Below are positions 36,793-45,540 of a stretch of DNA of 64,000 nt, in pieces. Position 1 is the first letter of the stretch; every line of letters begins with the position of its first letter. Under the pieces are notes generated by a model, which was not told where the DNA came from, made no database searches, and saw nothing but the letters and a program-made list of their open reading frames with translations. Position numbers and translations under genes: made by a program. The stretch comes from Xanthomonas sp. AM6 (lineage in GTDB: Bacteria > Pseudomonadota > Gammaproteobacteria > Xanthomonadales > Xanthomonadaceae), in contig NZ_CP106869.1 of assembly GCF_025665335.1 (NCBI RefSeq), positions 2,320,501 to 2,384,500 on the forward strand, written 5' to 3'.

Positions 36793-36868
<76 letters not shown>

Positions 36869-36914
36869 ACTTTTCGGGCATTAGGCCTGTCCGCAAAGCC
36901 ACATCGTTATCAGC

Positions 36915-36990
36915 GTCCCCATCGTCTAGAGGCCTAGGACATCACCCTTTCACGGTGGCGACCGGGGTTCGAATCCCCGTGGGGACGCCA
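36915..36990 (+). tRNA. tRNA-Glu (anticodon TTC), copy 1
   Basis: 76 bases with encoded CCA. Acceptor GTCCCCA/TGGGGAC, anticodon loop CTTTCAC giving TTC, T-arm CGGGG-TTCGAAT-CCCCG. Follows tRNA-Ala by 46 bases and shares its promoter. Identical to copy 2 at 37216. Confidence 0.98.
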
Positions 36991-37010
36991 TTTTATTCGC
37001 AAGAAACTCG

Positions 37011-37035
37011 AGTCCGGCGCTGCCGGACTTTTTTT
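37011..37035 (+). terminator. Intrinsic terminator after the first Ala/Glu pair
   Basis: Perfect 8-bp stem AGTCCGGC/GCCGGACT with a three-base loop, followed by a run of seven T. Lies 20 bases after tRNA-Glu copy 1. Confidence 0.92.
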
Positions 37036-37044
37036 GTGCGGGGT

Positions 37045-37073
37045 TTGTACATTCCGCGGGAATCGGGTAAGAT
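37045..37073 (+). promoter_or_regulatory. Promoter of the second tRNA-Ala/Glu pair
   Basis: TTGTAC at 37045–37050, 17-base spacer, TAAGAT at 37068–37073, 21 bases before tRNA-Ala copy 2. It lies just after the first unit's terminator, so the two tRNA units are independently transcribed. Confidence 0.65.
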
Positions 37074-37094
37074 TCCGCTTCTGCCAGTACACGT

Positions 37095-37170
<76 letters not shown>

Positions 37171-37215
37171 CGTTTTCGGACATAGGCCTGTCCGCGAAGC
37201 GGCACCATCATCAGC

Positions 37216-37291
37216 GTCCCCATCGTCTAGAGGCCTAGGACATCACCCTTTCACGGTGGCGACCGGGGTTCGAATCCCCGTGGGGACGCCA
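37216..37291 (+). tRNA. tRNA-Glu (anticodon TTC), copy 2
   Basis: 76 bases with encoded CCA, identical to copy 1 at 36915. The spacer before it (ACATAGGCCTGTCCGCGAAG) is similar to but not identical with the first unit's spacer. Confidence 0.98.
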
Positions 37292-37332: not shown

Positions 37333-37399
37333 CCTGCGTTTCAGGCGCTGCCGGCGGGCGATCGCGATCTGGCGGCGTGGCCGCGTGCCGCTGCGCGGT

Positions 37400-37610
37400 T
37401 CAGTGCAGCAGCTTGCCGATCTCCAGGATGGTTTGCGGGGTTCCTGCACGCTGTGCCCGAGGTCACGACGGTCTCAGGCGCCGCTCCGGCCAGACGCGCG
37501 CTCCAGTAGGGCACGCCGCCGCCGCCGGATTGCGGCACCGGCACGCGCGCATCTCGGCGGGCGATGATCGAGTGGCAGCTCACCTTCGGCACGCGACAAG
37601 GCCCGGGCGG
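37400..37610 (-). pseudogene. Decayed C-terminal fragment of an alpha/beta hydrolase
   Basis: On the minus strand one frame gives RVPKVSCHSIIARRD and GGGVPYWSARLAGAAPETVV. After a one-base shift another gives SGHSVQ, and a further shift gives NPQTILEIGKLLH before a TGA at 37402–37400. Joined, these match the usual end of a lipase-like family (HSIIG ... DGVVPYWSxxLxGAxxE ... SGHSVQxNPxxIxEIxRLLH), where the second His is catalytic. At least two frameshifts and no N-terminal part are seen, so it is a relic. It lies between the lanthipeptide cluster and the tRNA array. Confidence 0.7.
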
Positions 37611-37624
37611 CACCGCTGTGGCGA

Positions 37625-38839
37625 TCAGATCGCCCTGATCGCCGCCACCGGGGAGATGGCCGAGGCGCGAAGTGCCGGAGCCAGCACGGCAAGCTGCCCC
37701 AGGATCCATAGCGTGACCGCACCGATCGGCATGTACCAGAGCGGCAACCGCGGCAACTCGTAAGCGCGCATCAGCGCCAGGCTCATGCCATAGGCGAGAA
37801 GCATGCCGAACACGATGCCCAGCGAGACAATGATGAAGTTCTCGATCTGGAAGTAACGCAGGATGTCGCTGCGAGTGGCGCCGAGCGCTCGTCGAATACC
37901 GATCTGCTTGCGGCGTTGCGTCACCCAGAAGCTTGCAAGCCCGACGATGCCCAGCGCGGTCGTCCCGAGCAGGGCGACGATGACGCCCAGCAGCATCGCC
38001 GCCATCACTCGCGAGCTCTTGAAGTAGCTGTCGCGCAACTCCGCAAGGCTCCGGCTTTGCTCCATGTCGAAGACGGCATCGGGCGCCACCTTGAGGACCG
38101 CTTCGCGAGCATCGCGCATGATTCTGGGGATGTCCTCCGGGCTTCCCCGGATCAGGTATTTGCCTACGAGATTCGGCCCCGGGATCGCAGGCACAAAGAC
38201 GGACCAATCCGGATCCTCGGCCTCGCCTCCGCCGGGCTGGGATACCGAAAGATGGTCGATGACACCGATCACCCTGAATGCAGTGTCCATGCTCCAGATG
38301 CGCTGTCCGATCGGATTCTCGCCTGGCCAGAGATGCTCGGCCAGCTTCCGTGTGATCAGTATGGGCGGATTGGAGGGAACGTATTGGGCGACCGGCGTGT
38401 ACTCTTCCGAAGAGGGAAGGCGTCCCGACAGCAGGCGCAACCCGAAGGACTGGATGGCGCTTGCGTCGCCTACATAGAAGTCGATCACGCCGCCGAAACG
38501 CTGTTGTTCCTGATCGAGGGTGACCCCGGCCCTGACGGCAGGTTCGCCGAACGGCACGGCGTTGACCACGCTGACGGCTTTCACCGCGGGGACCTCGCGC
38601 AGGGCGTTCACCACCCGGGCGTTGAGATCGCTGGCCGACTGCGGGTCGAATCCCGAGAGCTTGACGGTTCCCAAGGCCGCTTCGTCCACGCCGCTGTCGA
38701 TCCGCATCGCCTGCAGCCGTTGCGAAATAAGGAAGCAGGCATTGCAGAAGACCGCACAGGCCAAGGAAATCTCCAGCGCGATCAGGAAGGTGGCGATGCG
38801 GTGCTTGCGGAGCGCGGAAAGGACGATGCGGATCTGCAT
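37625..38839 (-). CDS. FtsX/MacB-type ABC transporter permease 2 of the lanthipeptide cluster
   Basis: 404 residues. N-terminal membrane helix (IATFLIALEISLACAVFCNA), a periplasmic MacB-like domain (about 50–270, with LITRKLAEHLWPGENPIGQR and FRVIGVIDHL), then three helices of the FtsX domain (VMAAMLLGVIVALLGTTALG, FIIVSLGIVFGMLLAYGMSL, IGAVTLWILGQLAVLAPAL). RRKQIGIRRALGATRSDILR is the cytoplasmic loop that contacts the ATPase. It carries no ATPase domain, and no MacB-type ATPase or adaptor lies nearby. It begins 10 bases after its sister gene stops. Likely role: export of or immunity to the lanthipeptide. Confidence 0.88.
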   Translation of the reverse strand: MQIRIVLSALRKHRIATFLIALEISLACAVFCNACFLISQRLQAMRIDSGVDEAALGTVKLSGFDPQSASDLNARVVNALREVPAVKAVSVVNAVPFGEPAVRAGVTLDQEQQRFGGVIDFYVGDASAIQSFGLRLLSGRLPSSEEYTPVAQYVPSNPPILITRKLAEHLWPGENPIGQRIWSMDTAFRVIGVIDHLSVSQPGGGEAEDPDWSVFVPAIPGPNLVGKYLIRGSPEDIPRIMRDAREAVLKVAPDAVFDMEQSRSLAELRDSYFKSSRVMAAMLLGVIVALLGTTALGIVGLASFWVTQRRKQIGIRRALGATRSDILRYFQIENFIIVSLGIVFGMLLAYGMSLALMRAYELPRLPLWYMPIGAVTLWILGQLAVLAPALRASAISPVAAIRAI

Positions 38840-38849
38840 GAGGGCTCTT

Positions 38850-40169
38850 CTACAGCAGCTTCAGTTGCGATGCGGGTTCAATCAGGCTGGCGCGCAGTGC
38901 CGGCAGCATTCCCGCAAGCAAGCTGACCGCCACCGACAACGCGAACGTCAACAGGAACATCGATACGTCCAGATAGGCGAAGTCCGCATAGGGAACGGGT
39001 TGACGGCGTACCAGATGCAGGCCGAGCAGGGTCAGCATCAGCCCGCCCACACCGCCGAACACGCCGATGGCCGCCGATTCGACCAGGCATTGGGTGAAGA
39101 CCGAGGCCCGGGTGGCCCCCAGCGCCCGGCGTAGCCCGGTCTCTCCGCTGTGCCGCAGGAACTTCGCCAGCAGCAAGCCCACCACATTGGTCAGACAGAT
39201 CATGAGGAAAGCGAAAGCCAGCGCGGATTGCAGCTTCACATCGCTGGGCACCACGCGATTGAAATCGAGCCATTGCATCAGCGACCGCAGTCGGGTGTTG
39301 TCCGCGTACTTGATCCGACCCAAGTCCTTCTGCTGCGCGGCGTAGTTCTGCAGGAAGCGATCGTAGGCGGCCACTTTCTCGGCACCGTCCAATCGGACCC
39401 AAAGGGCCACCCATACGCACGGAGCGTTCTCGAGGTGTCCCGGCTGGTCCGGGGTTCCCCAGCAGGTGAATGCCTGGAAGTTTCCGGCATTGACCTCGAG
39501 ACTGGTAAAGAAGGGAACGAAAATATCATCGGGCTGCCCGTAGAAGCTCGACGTGTCGCCATTGGCGAACCTGCCGCCACGCACCTTGTAGAACAGGGGG
39601 GACGGCCGCCAGGGCGCCAGGACGCCGGTGATCCGCACGTCGACGCCTCCCAGTCGCACGATCTGGCCGACGCTGTTCCTTCCCCCGAACAGCTTTTCGT
39701 TCAAGCTGGAGGAAATCACCGCCAAGCGTGCGCGTCCGGCGTCATCGTTCCGGCTCCATCCCTGCCCATACTGAAATGGAACGTTGAACATGGGGAAGAA
39801 GTCGGACGTGGTGGACGCCATCGACAGCATCAGCGGCGGAAGCCGCGTGGCGGGCGCGCTCAGTTTCACCTGGCTGTTGACGACCAGCGTTTGCTGATCG
39901 GCCTGCTTGGCGTTCCACAGGTCCATCGCCGTCCGGTAATCGAGAACATCGAGCGGCTCTCGGCCCTTGGACTGTGGATTGACGTCGATCTGAGGGTAGT
40001 AGAGGTCCTTGCTGCGGCCGGGCAGAGGATCTCCCGACAGCAGGTGCATCACCGTCAGGGTCGTCATGCTCGCACCGATGCCTACGGCGATCGCCAGCAC
40101 CATCAGCGCGGTCAGCACCCTGTTGCGCTTCATGTTGTGCAAAGCGATCTTCACATAGTAGGCGAGCAT
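38850..40169 (-). CDS. FtsX/MacB-type ABC transporter permease 1 of the lanthipeptide cluster
   Basis: About 439 residues from ATG 40169 (AAGGAG 11 bases upstream); the frame opens at TTG 40202. Same architecture as its neighbour: helix VLTALMVLAIAVGIGASMTT, periplasmic MacB_PCD domain (about 45–300), then an FtsX domain with ETGLRRALGATRASVFTQ as the coupling loop. The two permeases are only distantly similar and probably form a heterodimer. The partner ATPase is not in the cluster, unless the exporter NBD at 40275 serves it, which is unlikely because that one is fused to its own membrane domain. Confidence 0.87.
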   Translation of the reverse strand: MLAYYVKIALHNMKRNRVLTALMVLAIAVGIGASMTTLTVMHLLSGDPLPGRSKDLYYPQIDVNPQSKGREPLDVLDYRTAMDLWNAKQADQQTLVVNSQVKLSAPATRLPPLMLSMASTTSDFFPMFNVPFQYGQGWSRNDDAGRARLAVISSSLNEKLFGGRNSVGQIVRLGGVDVRITGVLAPWRPSPLFYKVRGGRFANGDTSSFYGQPDDIFVPFFTSLEVNAGNFQAFTCWGTPDQPGHLENAPCVWVALWVRLDGAEKVAAYDRFLQNYAAQQKDLGRIKYADNTRLRSLMQWLDFNRVVPSDVKLQSALAFAFLMICLTNVVGLLLAKFLRHSGETGLRRALGATRASVFTQCLVESAAIGVFGGVGGLMLTLLGLHLVRRQPVPYADFAYLDVSMFLLTFALSVAVSLLAGMLPALRASLIEPASQLKLL

Positions 40170-40274
40170 GCCTTCAAGCACTCCTTCGGACCATCGGGAC
40201 AATCGCTCCGTTCGGCGCCGACAGTCGGCCGGGACGGGAAGAACGAGACGTGGGTGCCATTGGCCGCGTTCGGA

Positions 40275-41867
40275 TCAGCATGGGACGGCATTGCCTTGCG
40301 GCTGCGCATGCGCCTGGTCTTTTCCCAGCATATGCACCTGGTCGAATATTGAAAAGTATTCCTCGGCGCCATGCATGACGATCAGCAGAATCCTGCCGCG
40401 CGTGCGGCTCTGGATCTCTTCCATGGCGATGGACCGGCTGCGCATGTCCAGATTGGCCAGAGGCTCGTCCAGCACATAAAGGTCCGCATCCTGCGAAAGC
40501 GCGAGGGACAGCGACAATTTCTGCTGTTGCCCGGCGGACAATTGATCGGGATACGACTCCAGGATGTCCGGCTCGTATATCCCGAATAGTTGCAGCAGTC
40601 TGTCTTCCGCTCCAAGGTCCCGGACCTTGATCGGCGGGAACAGCACCGGCAGCGTCACCGCGCTTATCCGCGCAGGGAGCTCGAGAGCACCCTGCGACGG
40701 CGAAAGATAGCCGGACAGGATGTTGGCGAGGGTGGTCTTTCCGGATCCGTTATGGCCGACGATGAGCGCACGCGTTCCCGGCTCCAGGCGCAGGGAAAAA
40801 TCCGAAATCACCGGACTGGTTCCATACGTATAGCTGATCGACGTCGCAGCGACCGCAGTCCCGATCCGATGATAGGGCGTGGCGGGCGGCGCATCCAGGA
40901 ACGCCACCACCCTGCCGAGCGTCGCTGCATGGCTGTGCAGCTCCGCCCACTGCCTGAAGATCTCGATCAGCGTCGTCGCAGAGCGCCAGAAGGCGTTCAT
41001 GAAGGCGATGAACGAACCAATGGTCATCTGCCTGCGGAACACGAACAGCGCGCCTACGAAGATGGAGCAGACATCGGAGATGACCATCGTCAGGTCGCTG
41101 GCTCCTTGCAGCAAGCGAATGACGCGGAACTTCCTGTATCCGGAATCCAGGACCTCGTCCATGCTCCTGGAGAAGTTGCCGAGCGTCTTGGGGACCAGGC
41201 TGAAGCTGCAGACCATCTTGAACGCACCCACGGATTTGGTGAGCGCATTCAACAGTACCGCCTCCTTGTCGCGTTCGATGGAGGTGAGGCCGCGGATCTT
41301 CTTGCCGACCACGATGCTCACGAACGTGGCGATGGGGATGATGGCCGAGAGAATCAGGAATGCCTGCCAGGAGATGAAGATCAGCACCGAGACGAGCGCG
41401 ACGAACGTGGCGATCTTCACCGCCAAGGTCCGCACAAGGCCGAGCATGGGGACGACGCCGTCCTTCACGTCGGACCGGATGCGGGCCACGTAGGAACCTT
41501 CTCCCTCGCGCAGCACCTCTCGGTAGTCCTTGCTGAAATAGGCGCGCAGCAAATCGCCGCTGATCTGTCTGACGATCTTGTTGTCCAGCTTCAGCTGCCA
41601 GAGGGAAAGCCAGTAGATCGCGCCATTGAGGGTGAGTCCCAGGGCGAGATAGCCGAGAACCAGATAGACGAACCGCCCGAAATCCGCGCGGCTGGAGGCC
41701 TCGTCGAAAATCGCCTTCATCAACAAGGGATGCAGCAAGCCTTCCGCTCCCCCCACCAGAGCGGCACAGAGAGTGACGCCCGCATATTCCGCCCGGAACT
41801 TGCCGAGCAGCAGCAGGAAGCACTGCGCTGTCGAGCGCCGGAGATGGACTGTGGCAGGCGACTTCAT
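40275..41867 (-). CDS. Fused-type ABC exporter (membrane domain + ATPase), probable lanthipeptide exporter
   Basis: 530 residues from ATG 41867 (GGAGAGG just upstream); a TTG 6 codons earlier overlaps the lanKC stop. Six membrane helices span about residues 20–310 (LFLSLW-like core with ISWQAFLILSAIIPIATFVS). The nucleotide-binding domain has Walker A VGHNGSGKTT, signature LSAGQQQKL, Walker B LYVLDEPLANLD and switch His in IVMHGAEE. It has no N-terminal C39 peptidase, so it cannot remove a leader itself. It lies 14 bases after lanKC and presumably exports the modified peptide across the inner membrane as a homodimer. Confidence 0.9.
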   Translation of the reverse strand: MKSPATVHLRRSTAQCFLLLLGKFRAEYAGVTLCAALVGGAEGLLHPLLMKAIFDEASSRADFGRFVYLVLGYLALGLTLNGAIYWLSLWQLKLDNKIVRQISGDLLRAYFSKDYREVLREGEGSYVARIRSDVKDGVVPMLGLVRTLAVKIATFVALVSVLIFISWQAFLILSAIIPIATFVSIVVGKKIRGLTSIERDKEAVLLNALTKSVGAFKMVCSFSLVPKTLGNFSRSMDEVLDSGYRKFRVIRLLQGASDLTMVISDVCSIFVGALFVFRRQMTIGSFIAFMNAFWRSATTLIEIFRQWAELHSHAATLGRVVAFLDAPPATPYHRIGTAVAATSISYTYGTSPVISDFSLRLEPGTRALIVGHNGSGKTTLANILSGYLSPSQGALELPARISAVTLPVLFPPIKVRDLGAEDRLLQLFGIYEPDILESYPDQLSAGQQQKLSLSLALSQDADLYVLDEPLANLDMRSRSIAMEEIQSRTRGRILLIVMHGAEEYFSIFDQVHMLGKDQAHAQPQGNAVPC

Positions 41868-41881
41868 CAACCTCTCCGGAC

Positions 41882-44638
41882 TCAACGACTCGCAGCGGCG
41901 GCAGGCATCCCTGTACCCGACTCTAGTCGTTCCAGATGCGGCAGGGAAGACGCCGAACGGGACCGCGCAGACAGGTCGTCGATCTCGTCCAGGCAGAACT
42001 CGTCCGGTGACAGGGTCACGCGCCGATGGAGCGTTCGCATGATGCCTGCGGTCCCGGTGGCATAGTCACAGGAAATGCGGAACAGGTTCTCCCCTGGAGT
42101 CGCGTAGCCGCTGTCTTCCTTGAACAGGTACAAGTCCGCCAGCCCTTGCAACGGCCGCTCCGCCATGGCCAGGTACTTCTCGTCTCCGGAGTAGAGATAC
42201 GCATCGACCAGAACGTCCACGAATCCGGCCAGTCCATAGATCAGGCCCGGGAATCCCGAGTACTTCCTGTGCAGGTCGGTGAGGATGCGATCCAGCCGGT
42301 CCCAGAGCCCGTATCGGATGGCCACCTTGGCGACACCGGCGCTGCCTTGCTCTATGTAGTGCTCGTAGGTGTTTTTTTCTTCAGGCGCGCAGGCGAAGGT
42401 GAGACTGCCAGGTTCCAGCTCGTAGCCAAACGACAGATCGTAGTCGAGCGCCTTGCTTCCCATCGCGCGCCAGGATGCGACGTTCAGTACCTGGGACAAG
42501 CGCAAGAAGAACAGCGCGACGCCGCTTTGACCATAGCCGAATCCGATCCGGATGCCGCCTTCGTCCTCCCAATGCAGCCCTCTCTCATCCTCGATCGCGG
42601 TCGAGGCCAGGGTCTTGGCCAGGTCGATCGCAACGTCCAGGTAGTGCGGTTCGCCGGTGCTCCGATAGGCGGCAAGGTTCGCCATGCCCACGCCAGCCAT
42701 GCCGTAATAGAGCGAGTGATGTTGGCGAAGCAAGGCGCTGCCGTTGGCATAGTCCATGAAGCGCTTGCCGATGTCGGCACTTCCGATTCCAAAGCTGGCC
42801 CAGGCAATTCCGGCGGTACCGGTGAGAAATCCAGGCGGAAGCGCTTGCGGTCCGACGGCTGCCATTTCCCTGTTGTAGCGCTCCAGCGCCTGCTCCGGAA
42901 CATCGAAGCCGCACTTGCGCAACGACTGAACGATGCCGCAGGCGCCAAAGCCGAGGCTCAGCGCGTTGGTGTGGCCGGCGAAGGGGTCCACCGGAAACAG
43001 CGCATACACCTCTTCCAGGCGATAGTTGCTGATGATGAAGCCGGCCAGTTCGCGGCATGCCTCGGCTGGGGACAGGATCGCGGCAGACTGCTTCGCGGTA
43101 TAGGGTTTCTCGAAGGACGCCGGGCCCTGGAGCAGCGCGATCGCCTCGCGGCAGGTGATGGCGTTGCCGGAAAGCTGCTGGATGACCGTCTGGATGGGCG
43201 TATTCGACCAGCCGATGTCGGCCACGAGCGCGGGCAGGACATTGCTGAAGAGGTCGTCCCGAACGTACGCCATCGCGACGATCGGGAACATGCTGTACAT
43301 CATGATCGCGCCGATCGCGTAGACGTCGTCCTGGTAGTTGCTTTCTTTCTTGCGGCCCTTGACGGCAGCGCGGAACCCCGGGGTGTGGATGTCGAGGGGA
43401 TCGTCGACCGTCGGCTGGAACGCAGCTTCCAGGTCGATGATGCGGATTGTCATGGTGGCCTTTTCGACCAGGATATTCATCGGGGAAAGATCGCCAATCA
43501 CCACGCCCTTGCGATGGAATTGATCGACTGCCTCGAGCAGGCTGGTGAAAATGCTCTTGCACTTGGCGTAGAACGCCTCGCTGTCCTCTCTGCTCGGGTT
43601 GATGCGGAGCAGCGGGGTGTTCATCAACATCACCTCACGCATGTCGACAGCATCCAGATGCTCTTCGACAAGGTAGAAGTTTTCCCAGTCCCAGAAAGTG
43701 GTGATCAGCTGGGGGGAGACGCCCAGGTCGCTCACCAGGCGCAGGATTTTCTCTTCCTGGGCAAGGCGTGTCGTGGCGTCCTGGCCATTGGCGACGAGTT
43801 CGACGTACGGCCGGGCCTCCTTGACCACGACCTCATGCCCGGTCGCGGTATCGGTTGCCAGATAGACGCCGCCGGTATTCGAGAATCCCAATGCGCTGTT
43901 GACGAGGAACCGTCCCTCATTGAGGGTCATTTCCGACGACTCAGGGTCTTCGCGCGGGAAAGGATCCGAAACCCACGGTGGCGTTTCGAAATACGGAGTC
44001 CTTCGATCGACGACTTCTTGGCCGTCGGGCGATGTCAGGATCGGCACCAGCTGGCCCATGTAGTCGAGACGGTCGACGGGAATCATCCCGCCGTAACGGT
44101 AATAGAGGCAGCGGCAATCCTTGTAGCGATTGTCGGACAGAATATAGGAGCCGACGTCGTCCTTCAAAATGGCGTAGGCGCATTCTATGAACTGGCGGAA
44201 AACCTCGTCCGTCGGCGGGTAGATGGTAATGAATTTTCCGGACCCGCCGCGCGACCAGCGCTTCGAGGTCATCAACTTCATCGTGTTGATGTCGTTTGCG
44301 AACTTGAACTGGAGCCCGTGCTCCAGCGCGAGATGCGCGACTTTCGTGAGGATGTCCCGGCAATTGATCTCGTTCGCGGAGACATGGATCTTCCAGCCTT
44401 GCGTGGGGAGCGGGACCGTCGCGGCGTCCGGGTTGGGCATCACGTGCGACCAGACGCCGGAACGCCAGATGCTCCATTGCAGACCCCGTGTCTGCAGGAC
44501 CTGCTTGACCAGTGAACTCAGCTCGTCGGTAGGCCGGTAATGGGAATAGACAGGCTCGTAGAAACGGCTGTCTGCAGCCATGAAAAACACCTTGTCGATA
44601 TGACGGGCTTCCCGTAGCGACCTTGCTCGACCCGACAT
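41882..44638 (-). CDS. Class III lanthipeptide synthetase LanKC (lyase–kinase–cyclase)
   Basis: 918 residues from ATG 44638, with AAAGGA 7 bases upstream; in-frame ATG 44644 and TTG 44656 are less well placed. Residues 1–220 form the phospho-Ser/Thr lyase (SRFYEPV; GWKIHVSANEINCRD; SGKFITIYPP). The Ser/Thr kinase spans about 245–510, with Lys273, Glu295/296, catalytic Asp383 and Asn388 in IGDLSPMNILVE, and Asp402 in IDLEAAF. The LanC-like cyclase spans about 545–870 (GTAGIAWASFG, YGMAGVGMAN). The zinc Cys and CHG motif of class I, II and IV cyclases are missing: the equivalents read YIEQGSAG and LIYGLAGF. This is the class III hallmark. It phosphorylates and eliminates Ser/Thr in the precursor at 44788, then closes thioether or labionin rings. 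Confidence 0.95.
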   Translation of the reverse strand: MSGRARSLREARHIDKVFFMAADSRFYEPVYSHYRPTDELSSLVKQVLQTRGLQWSIWRSGVWSHVMPNPDAATVPLPTQGWKIHVSANEINCRDILTKVAHLALEHGLQFKFANDINTMKLMTSKRWSRGGSGKFITIYPPTDEVFRQFIECAYAILKDDVGSYILSDNRYKDCRCLYYRYGGMIPVDRLDYMGQLVPILTSPDGQEVVDRRTPYFETPPWVSDPFPREDPESSEMTLNEGRFLVNSALGFSNTGGVYLATDTATGHEVVVKEARPYVELVANGQDATTRLAQEEKILRLVSDLGVSPQLITTFWDWENFYLVEEHLDAVDMREVMLMNTPLLRINPSREDSEAFYAKCKSIFTSLLEAVDQFHRKGVVIGDLSPMNILVEKATMTIRIIDLEAAFQPTVDDPLDIHTPGFRAAVKGRKKESNYQDDVYAIGAIMMYSMFPIVAMAYVRDDLFSNVLPALVADIGWSNTPIQTVIQQLSGNAITCREAIALLQGPASFEKPYTAKQSAAILSPAEACRELAGFIISNYRLEEVYALFPVDPFAGHTNALSLGFGACGIVQSLRKCGFDVPEQALERYNREMAAVGPQALPPGFLTGTAGIAWASFGIGSADIGKRFMDYANGSALLRQHHSLYYGMAGVGMANLAAYRSTGEPHYLDVAIDLAKTLASTAIEDERGLHWEDEGGIRIGFGYGQSGVALFFLRLSQVLNVASWRAMGSKALDYDLSFGYELEPGSLTFACAPEEKNTYEHYIEQGSAGVAKVAIRYGLWDRLDRILTDLHRKYSGFPGLIYGLAGFVDVLVDAYLYSGDEKYLAMAERPLQGLADLYLFKEDSGYATPGENLFRISCDYATGTAGIMRTLHRRVTLSPDEFCLDEIDDLSARSRSASSLPHLERLESGTGMPAAAASR

Positions 44639-44735
44639 GCGCATTTCCTTTGCCAAGGTGGTTGTTCTTGTATTTTATTTATGGAGGTCAATCCATAAAT
44701 GGCTGCACTACAGCCGATGCGGACTAATCTTTTCC

Positions 44736-44774
44736 AAAAAAAGAGAGAGCAATGGCGATTCCGCCATTGCTCTC
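44736..44774 (-). terminator. Strong intrinsic terminator/attenuator between the precursor gene and lanKC
   Basis: Perfect 13-bp stem (44745–44757 with 44762–44774) around a four-base loop. Read on the minus strand it is followed by TCT and seven T. It lies 14 bases after the precursor stop and before lanKC. Partial read-through here would give many precursor transcripts per synthetase transcript, as in other lanthipeptide operons. Confidence 0.93.
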
Positions 44775-44787
44775 GACTTCCTGCCGC

Positions 44788-44898
44788 TTAGGCGATGACG
44801 CCGTTGCAGCAATTGCTGGTGGAGCTTCCGGTGCTGCTGCCCAGCAGCGAGTTGGTTTCGTCCAGGGCCAAGCGCTGCAGTTTCAGGACACGATTCAT
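44788..44898 (-). CDS. Class III lanthipeptide precursor peptide (LanA)
   Basis: 36 residues, missed by length-based gene calling. ATG 44898 has AAGGA 8 bases upstream. The leader holds VLKLQRL at residues 4–10, matching the LxLQ helix motif by which class III synthetases recognise their substrates. Residues 15–36 are the probable core: Thr15, Ser17, Ser21, Ser22, Thr23, Ser25, Ser26, Thr27 and Ser28 as dehydration sites, Cys30 and Cys31 adjacent, then NGVIA. Ser22-x2-Ser25 and Ser25-x2-Ser28 before Cys30/Cys31 fit the Ser-x2-Ser-xn-Cys labionin pattern. It lies upstream of lanKC in the same direction with a terminator between. The leader/core border is unknown; no dedicated protease is encoded. 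Confidence 0.92.
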   Translation of the reverse strand: MNRVLKLQRLALDETNSLLGSSTGSSTSNCCNGVIA

Positions 44899-44946
44899 TG
44901 ATCTTTCCTTGGTTAATGAGTTCATACCAGACAACTACTAACCAGA

Positions 44947-44970
44947 TATCCGGTTCATTTCGTCCGGATA
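44947..44970. promoter_or_regulatory. Inverted repeat upstream of the precursor gene
   Basis: TATCCGG (44947–44953) and CCGGATA (44964–44970), a 7+10+7 inverted repeat centred about 60 bases before the precursor ATG, in the expected promoter zone of the cluster. It may be an operator; no regulator gene is found in the cluster. Confidence 0.45.
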
Positions 44971-45420
44971 ACTGGGCCAACCGCATCGAGAGTTTCCCAA
45001 GCGTGGCGAAGCGCTCTCCTTGCAGCTTCTCTGTAGCGACGGAATCAACCCGCATAGAAATGCTGCGTTGCGCGCATTTCTCATATTCAATTCATCGCCA
45101 CTTGCCAGCGAACTTCTCAGGATTTTTTTTCATAGTCAAGTGCCCAAATGCAATGAGCGAAGTTTTCAGTTGCCTGGACATGATTTGTATCCGGCCGTAG
45201 ACAATTTCTGCACTGCCAATTCCAAACGGCGCGCATGTAGGGATTAGGGCGAGGACCTCATTCGCCGCTGCCAAAGCAACGGCGGGTGCATCATCGCGGC
45301 CAGCGTCGGGGCGGCTGCCAATGCATCTGCATGCCCCCCCACGCCCGCGCTCTCGTGGGGTGCGTTGCCGAATACCTCGGCGGGAAAGCTGCTCGTGCGC
45401 AACCTTGCCGGCTCCCTTCC
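44971..45420. other. AT-richer gap upstream of the lanthipeptide cluster
   Basis: About 450 bases, clearly less GC-rich than the chromosome on the 44971–45240 side and returning to GC-rich after that. It contains T8 at 45122–45129. Frames are short and lack ribosome sites. The GC change at about 45240 may mark the edge of acquired DNA. No integrase, insertion-sequence end or direct repeat is seen. Confidence 0.5.
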
Positions 45421-45508
45421 TTCCCGCGGCGGGAAACCGAAGAGATACTGTAAAATGAAGCCGCGACGTTGTTCAGCACGTCGCAGGGCCGGGGCTATGA
45501 ACCCGGCC
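45421..45508 (+). ncRNA. Structured RNA candidate: three successive hairpins
   Basis: TTCCCGC-G-GCGGGAA (45421–45435); CGACGT/ACGTCG (45464–45469 with 45478–45483); GGCCGGG/CCCGGCC (45487–45493 with 45502–45508), then a short T-run at 45517–45521. A TACTGT/TAAAAT patch at 45446–45455 could be a promoter. A 30-codon frame (ATG 45455) runs through it, which may instead be a leader peptide. It precedes the small gene at 45541. Only base-pairing supports this. Confidence 0.3.
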
Positions 45509-45540
45509 GGCGTAGATTTTTCCATGAACGGACGGACGCA

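Follow-up and report, generated by a model that had tools for sequence, protein, structure and literature searches.

Can a xanthomonad make and export a class III lanthipeptide from five clustered genes? This question is raised by a stretch of 64,000 nucleotides of Xanthomonas sp. AM6 (contig NZ_CP106869.1, positions 2,320,501 to 2,384,500), hereafter called the window. Its minus strand carries an operon transcribed in the order precursor, LanKC synthetase, fused ATP-binding cassette (ABC) exporter, FtsX1 and FtsX2. The original prediction had proposed this five-gene set from the letters of the DNA; all five genes are found on that strand where it had placed them, each with an intact reading frame. 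Very probably, the locus is a class III lanthipeptide operon gained by horizontal transfer, in which LanKC would form the rings of the peptide and export might proceed in two stages.

The precursor and its synthetase

The synthetase gene (41882-44638, minus strand) encodes 918 amino acids from an ATG at 44638, or 924 from a possible TTG at 44656; residue numbers are given here from the TTG and have to be lowered by 6 for the ATG start. The protein passes the class III model NF038151 with 654.8 bits (cut-off 575), and its Pfam domains, RamC_N, Pkinase and LANC_like, correspond to a lyase, a Ser/Thr kinase and a LanC-like cyclase in a single chain. The closest solved structures are LanKCs, the best being 8sap (E 5.5e-70); entries 8sam, 8sao and 8sap of the PDB are presumably ThurKC, because the residue numbers fit. 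Active-site residues were mapped by alignment to 8sao and to the ThurKC residues given in PMC10604976, with an inferred numbering offset of 3 (this and the other PMC papers are cited from extracts of their text). All eight ThurKC lyase residues are kept (K89, H91, K118, K132, K141, D175, R187 and R219), as are the kinase residues K279, R297, D389, N394, D408 and E410.

The precursor gene (44788-44898, minus strand) is preceded by a ribosome-binding site, AAGGAAAG, read from the sequence at 44903-44910 of the same strand. Its product of 36 amino acids, MNRVLKLQRLALDETNSLLGSSTGSSTSNCCNGVIA, has a leader with an LxLQ helix and a Ser/Thr/Cys core that ends in GSSTGSSTSNCCNGVIA, and the gene adjoins lanKC. 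The peptide passes two class III models of NCBIfam, NF038160 (lanthi_III_c; 33.4 bits, cut-off 27) and NF038154 (lanthi_III_a; 30.6 bits, cut-off 22); it stays under the cut-off of a third, NF038159 (17.5 bits against 30), and a Pfam scan gave no match. The class III assignment of the original prediction is thus borne out by family-model scores for both precursor and synthetase. A core motif S-x2-S-x3-C has been called characteristic of class III (PMC7268733). The window precursor does not have it, S22-x2-S25 being followed by x4 to C30. Since other core spacings occur in accepted class III peptides, the mismatch is not treated as disqualifying.

A scan of genome contigs recovered four relatives of the LanKC, from an Oxalobacteraceae metagenome-assembled genome (MAG), Oleiagrimonas soli, Stenotrophomonas maltophilia and a Sphingomonas MAG. 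Two of the loci, L001 and L004 (the Sphingomonas MAG), are MAG contigs, so the hosts named for them could be mistaken. A tree built from 31 LanKCs places the window with L001, L002, L003, L004, L048 and L050 in a clade of seven (support 100/100), and this clade is sister to Oleiagrimonas; the LanKCs of G179 and G366, genomes of the same family as the window, group tightly with that of the Stenotrophomonas locus. L058 (G090) was excluded from the tree because its LanKC is broken across two frames; the precursor next to it looks normal.

The seven clusters hold 17 precursors, one to four in each, and the short frame is conserved near LanKC in all seven, so that it is the likely substrate, as had been proposed. 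Eleven positions are invariant across the 17 precursors: M1, R3, L5, L7, Q8, L10, S22, S25, S26, C30 and C31. The core rule of the clade can be written S22-x2-S25-S26-x3-C30-C31, a pattern that formed no part of the scan query. Elsewhere in the family, other LanKC branches have precursors that depart from it, an example being ...STSSFAGCNC....

A profile built from the 16 other clade precursors, the window being left out, retrieves the window frame at E 7.5e-19 among 2303 short open reading frames (ORFs) of the window, nested starts counting separately; the best ORF outside the precursor frame reaches E 0.11. The profile is mildly circular, as its members were confirmed by a seed profile including the window peptide, although most of them had first been found by a motif scan. 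Change at amino-acid sites (pN) is lower than change at silent sites (pS) in 9/9 orthologous precursor pairs and in 4/4 pairs involving the window. For the orthologous precursors of L003, L048 and L050 (nine comparisons), silent sites changed by 0.28-0.67 and amino-acid sites by 0.08-0.31; for the window precursor against those of L001, L002 (two) and L003, the ranges are 0.36-0.55 and 0.21-0.32. Third-position GC of the precursor gene is 0.81, that of the neighbouring genes 0.78-0.81. A chance ORF is excluded by the leave-one-out profile, the selection test and the neighbourhood. Searching the genome of the window at E <= 0.1 gave no second precursor of the clade type.

Three side observations concern the peptides. 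In all 12 precursors of L001, L003, L048 and L050 the Cys pair is preceded by a His (SSTHSCC, for example), which the precursors of the window, L002 and L004 do not show; His crosslinks exist in one class III subgroup (PMC10206099). The precursors of L046, L049 and L059 (seen as L017, L020 and L029) combine an LxLQ motif with a GG-type leader end and WSTxSxxCGG-like cores, L049 coming from a congener. At 15168-16241 of L004, about 4.5 kb from LanKC, lies a gene resembling a radical SAM/SPASM maturase, under the cut-offs of the models listed.

Proposed pathway and nature of the product

The following pathway may be envisaged. The LxLQ helix of the precursor would be bound by LanKC, which would phosphorylate Ser and Thr residues of the core and then eliminate the phosphate, giving dehydroalanine and dehydrobutyrine. 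The same enzyme would join Cys to the dehydrated residues in a zinc-free manner. Because the core S22-x2-S25-S26-x3-C30-C31 is invariant, two crosslinks are suggested, for example a labionin from S22, S25 and C30 together with a lanthionine S26-C31, both spanning S-x4-C. The calculated monoisotopic MH+ of the unmodified precursor over its full length is 3752.87; for a core beginning at S21 it is 1487.61, falling to 1361.54 if all seven Ser/Thr are dehydrated. The modified peptide would then be carried to the periplasm by the fused ABC exporter, its leader would be cut off by a host protease encoded elsewhere, and the FtsX pair would serve either release from the cell or protection of the producer.

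The dosage of the precursor may be set by a hairpin (44745-44774, minus strand; 13 pairs and a T tail), which lies between the precursor gene and lanKC and is possibly a partial terminator. Partial terminators that raise the dose of the precursor are common in peptide operons, and the hairpin may yield more precursor than enzyme. Its stem, AGAGCAATGG, recurs 3' of precursors in L001 and L002; in L003, L048 and L050 the LanKC-proximal precursor is followed by a strong stem that differs in sequence and mostly shows no clear T tail. A strong hairpin is thus found at this place in six of the seven clusters. A simple scan gave no sigma-70 promoter (0 found, 1.8 expected). An element CTCGATGCGGT is seen at about 44980-44990 and also 5' of both L002 precursors, some 80-90 bases before the precursor start.

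As to the role of the product, it is quite conceivable, if not what we would favour, that the peptide is a signal, a metal binder or a surface-active morphogen and not an antibiotic. Class III includes the morphogen SapB as well as the copper-binding noursin, which was without antimicrobial activity on a limited strain set (PMC10206099), and the core of the window precursor is hydrophilic as judged from its sequence. This hydrophilic character argues at the same time against a surfactant of the SapB kind.

Export, immunity and leader removal

The exporter gene (40275-41885, minus strand; likelier start ATG 41867) fuses membrane and ATPase domains, and Pfam detects no peptidase domain in its product. 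It is followed by the genes of two MacB-like permeases, FtsX1 (38850-40202, likelier start ATG 40169) and FtsX2 (37625-38839), both on the minus strand. The ADOP duplicated-permease model is matched by FtsX1 in its first, N-terminal half and by FtsX2 in its second, C-terminal half, each under the whole-protein cut-off. Such a pair in a proteobacterial class III system had been expected to be unusual, which proves overstated: within the flanks examined, an FtsX1 homologue (at least 40% identity) adjoins an FtsX2 homologue (34-75%) in 10 of the 27 LanKC loci besides the window. In the clade, the permease pair stands 3' of the ABC gene in six of seven clusters, the window included.

What accompanies the pair varies. 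An ATPase of the MacB/DarD type lies 3' of it in L001, L002, L003 and L050, that is in four of the six, and not in the window or L048; an adaptor and TolC occur near it in L001 only, within the flanks examined. The L001 adaptor and TolC pass the general models TIGR01730 and TIGR01844. The best match of the L001 ATPase is the darobactin exporter ATPase DarD, at 258 bits and under the cut-off of 375, and the adaptor reaches 51 bits against DarC, far under the cut-off of 450. No ATPase or adaptor match is found in the window, so that its operon does not have the composition of a MacAB- or Dar-type exporter. Another locus of the same genome, L072 (about G000:C1:4.149-4.159 Mb), encodes an adaptor together with an ATPase (G000:C1:4150737-4151420) that shares 67% identity with the L001 ATPase. 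Three FtsX1/FtsX2 pairs follow one another in this locus, and the end of the stretch truncates the third. Because adaptor, L001-like ATPase and three pairs stand together there, we infer that FtsX pairs may share one ATPase and adaptor, and those acting with the window pair would probably be encoded elsewhere in the chromosome.

A different function has been considered for the permeases. They could form an immunity device that clears the peptide from the membrane of the producer, the fused ABC protein being the sole exporter. Resistance to peptides through ABC systems of the FtsX type is well known, and the pair appears unnecessary for synthesis, because L004 manages without it. However, the order in L001, a pair followed by adaptor, ATPase and TolC, is that of an envelope-spanning exporter, and the immunity explanation, though possible, appears to us rather doubtful. 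For leader removal, the island that holds the operon offers no protease gene. Class III producers often rely on proteases of the M1 or M16 type whose genes lie elsewhere (PMC10885120, PMC8960859). In the genome of the window, M1 is matched three times and M16 four times, the M16 matches falling in two open frames; these are candidates for the task. The cluster was therefore too readily called complete, its island being without a protease gene and its FtsX pair without an ATPase or adaptor in the window.

The island and its origin

The operon lies in an inserted block of 7.9 kb (37591-45518, strand not assigned), delimited by the boundaries of homology with congeners and by GC content. The latter is 0.54-0.64 in the block, against 0.68 for the window, 0.705 in the left flank and 0.67-0.68 in the right flank. 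On the left, congener homology ends at 37585-37593 in four of the eight loci compared, which are the closest ones (L061-L064); weaker similarity runs up to the same place in L066 and L067, and in L060 and L065 homology ends earlier, at about 37350. The right-hand boundary is marked by homology that starts again at 45519 in G111, G238, G250 and G300; in G271 and G308 it does so no more than 13 bases away. Among congeners, the distance separating the two flanks goes from 1.6 kb (G250) through 14 kb (G300), 15 kb (G238) and 82 kb (G111) to 88 kb (G271); the insertion site, beside five tRNA genes, is therefore a variable spot. The tRNA genes adjoining it (36793-37291) comprise a tandem duplicate of tRNA-Ala/tRNA-Glu (Ala-Glu-Ala-Glu) after tRNA-Leu. 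Next to them, at about 37390-37590 on the minus strand, is the tail of a gene, of the alpha/beta-hydrolase type by eye.

These boundaries bear on another explanation, namely that the window copy is a partly decayed remnant: an insertion or deletion would have taken the ATPase and adaptor, and the product would be made and not released, or not made at all. FtsX2 ends about 35 bp from the core junction near 37590, at the place where four relatives carry the ATPase, and of the left neighbour just the tail is present, the gene having a long open frame in congener G111. On the other hand, all five frames are intact, L048 likewise has a pair without an adjoining ATPase, and a related ATPase and adaptor are present in the same genome. 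Decay of this kind is thus unlikely in our opinion.

The cyclase site and the strength of the evidence

At the columns of the zinc ligands, which are C, C and H in the LanM of locus L056 taken as a control, the window has E769, I806 and Y807 and ThurKC has S726, F770 and D771. The cyclase is thus without zinc ligands, as originally proposed. The Glu/Ile/Tyr set occurs in 7/7 clade members and in none of 24 other LanKCs, several of which are near-duplicates (24 and not 25, L058 having no letters at these columns); other branches vary widely there. That the synthetase is a class IV or zinc enzyme is practically discounted, since its match to the class IV model, 453.5 bits, stays under the cut-off of 650 while the class III score exceeds its own, and the zinc columns read E, I and Y. 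Neither an unconserved frame, nor another adjacent peptide as substrate, nor an alignment with class IV enzymes, the outcomes named beforehand as contrary to the prediction, has been seen.

In ThurKC, changes of F770 or D771 permit dehydration and abolish cyclisation (PMC10604976). It may be hypothesised that the Glu of the clade substitutes for these cyclase residues. A bolder proposal would make the clade a distinct class III subtype, with a metal-free cyclase in which a conserved Glu and Tyr replace the Phe-Asp of ThurKC, with two interlocked crosslinks from S-x2-S-S-x3-C-C, and with FtsX pairs relying on a shared distant ATPase and adaptor; taken as a whole, it is a tentative and rather improbable one.

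Several points weigh against the pathway proposed here. Because the cyclase site differs from that of ThurKC, where the F770 and D771 changes blocked cyclisation, cyclisation by the clade is presumptive; the simple sequence alignment of the cyclase domain has moreover been called unclear (PMC10604976). With neither ATPase nor adaptor nor protease in the island, export and leader removal could be broken in the window. L004 has neither the FtsX pair nor a clear hairpin 3' of its LanKC-proximal precursor, and terminator-like sites in the region are not above shuffles (8 found, 5.8 expected). Since the first scan required an LxLQ-like motif, L7 and Q8 are to some extent invariant by construction, and the selection test on the precursors has just 32-40 codons per pair.

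Distribution

LanKC is rare in the phylum, in a sample of which it was found at E <= 1e-90 in at least 1 of 398 genomes, that of the window itself; the clade precursor, at E <= 0.001, was likewise found in at least 1 of 398, again that of the window. In the family, however, LanKC is over cut-off in at least 20 of 395 genomes. The family and phylum counts are lower bounds, part of the first-look candidates having been scored per genome. In the family, the cut-off count is used because at E <= 0.001 nearly every genome (391 of 395) has a match, mostly via kinases; among the control genomes, 12/14 match at that threshold and 1/14 is over cut-off. G013, G090 and G093 have LanKC-like genes slightly under cut-off. 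In the genus subset of 20 genomes, LanKC is over cut-off in three, those of the window, G058 and G214, the latter two LanKCs sitting on a different branch. Viral contigs gave a single LanKC, distant (28% identity) and outside the clade. Among plasmids, 40 records have a LanKC, all under 60% identical to that of the window, and no xanthomonad plasmid is among the 20 of these 40 that were listed.

Comparison with known systems

To our knowledge, no member of the clade has been characterised, and open-licence PMC yielded neither a laboratory study of the clade nor literature joining lanthipeptide, FtsX and class III. The NCBIfam families lanthi_III_c and lanthi_III_a, whose cut-offs the precursor passes, are models without a product structure. 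Class III clusters have been predicted in related gammaproteobacteria by genome mining: eight in Lysobacter genomes (PMC11451712), one in L. enzymogenes CX03 (PMC9410377), and in four of five strains of Luteibacter mycovicinus (PMC11165876); the extracts give no structure for these. For X. hortorum pv. carotae M081 there is a lanthipeptide prediction of unstated class (PMC9062649). A class III peptide of Myxococcus fulvus, listed under Pseudomonadota, has been produced in E. coli with seven dehydrations (PMC9576775).

Further away, plasmid P4 of Deinococcus gobiensis I-0 (NC_017792.1) resembles the window in its short precursors, a LanKC of 35.4% identity, one ABC exporter and a class III annotation. 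It differs in having one Cys per precursor, two identical precursors and no FtsX gene in 3-kb flanks. Its record annotates class III precursors of 33 residues, which makes the earlier remark that the window gene is too short for ordinary gene calling an overstatement. The darobactin exporter DarB/DarC/DarD and MacAB-TolC share with the relatives of the window the types of FtsX permease, adaptor and ATPase. By contrast, the window has two split permeases in an operon without ATPase and adaptor, and no Dar or Mac model is over cut-off. That permeases of this sort have partners in common is an idea open to test, suggested by a split FtsX pair that has no ATPase to itself.

A further counterpart is ThurKC/ThurA of Bacillus thuringiensis (PMC10604976). 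Both systems have the order lyase, kinase and zinc-less cyclase, the mapped lyase and kinase residues, an LxLQ leader and, as proposed for the window, a protease encoded outside the cluster. They differ in the cyclase site and in the core motif; the window lacks a methyltransferase gene and has the FtsX pair. The mechanism of metal-free class III cyclases and the determinants of labionin are named as open questions in the same source. A clade without the proposed catalytic Asp and with an invariant Glu at a neighbouring ligand position would offer a direct test of metal-free cyclisation. Its unusual core pattern is worth bench testing, for which 17 precursors and seven enzymes constitute a ready paired set for expression. 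Since class III clusters in relatives are already in print as predictions, the window cluster belongs to a known kind. Class III is already known in the Xanthomonadaceae, and the clade of the window is possibly a variant in its cyclase site and core rule.

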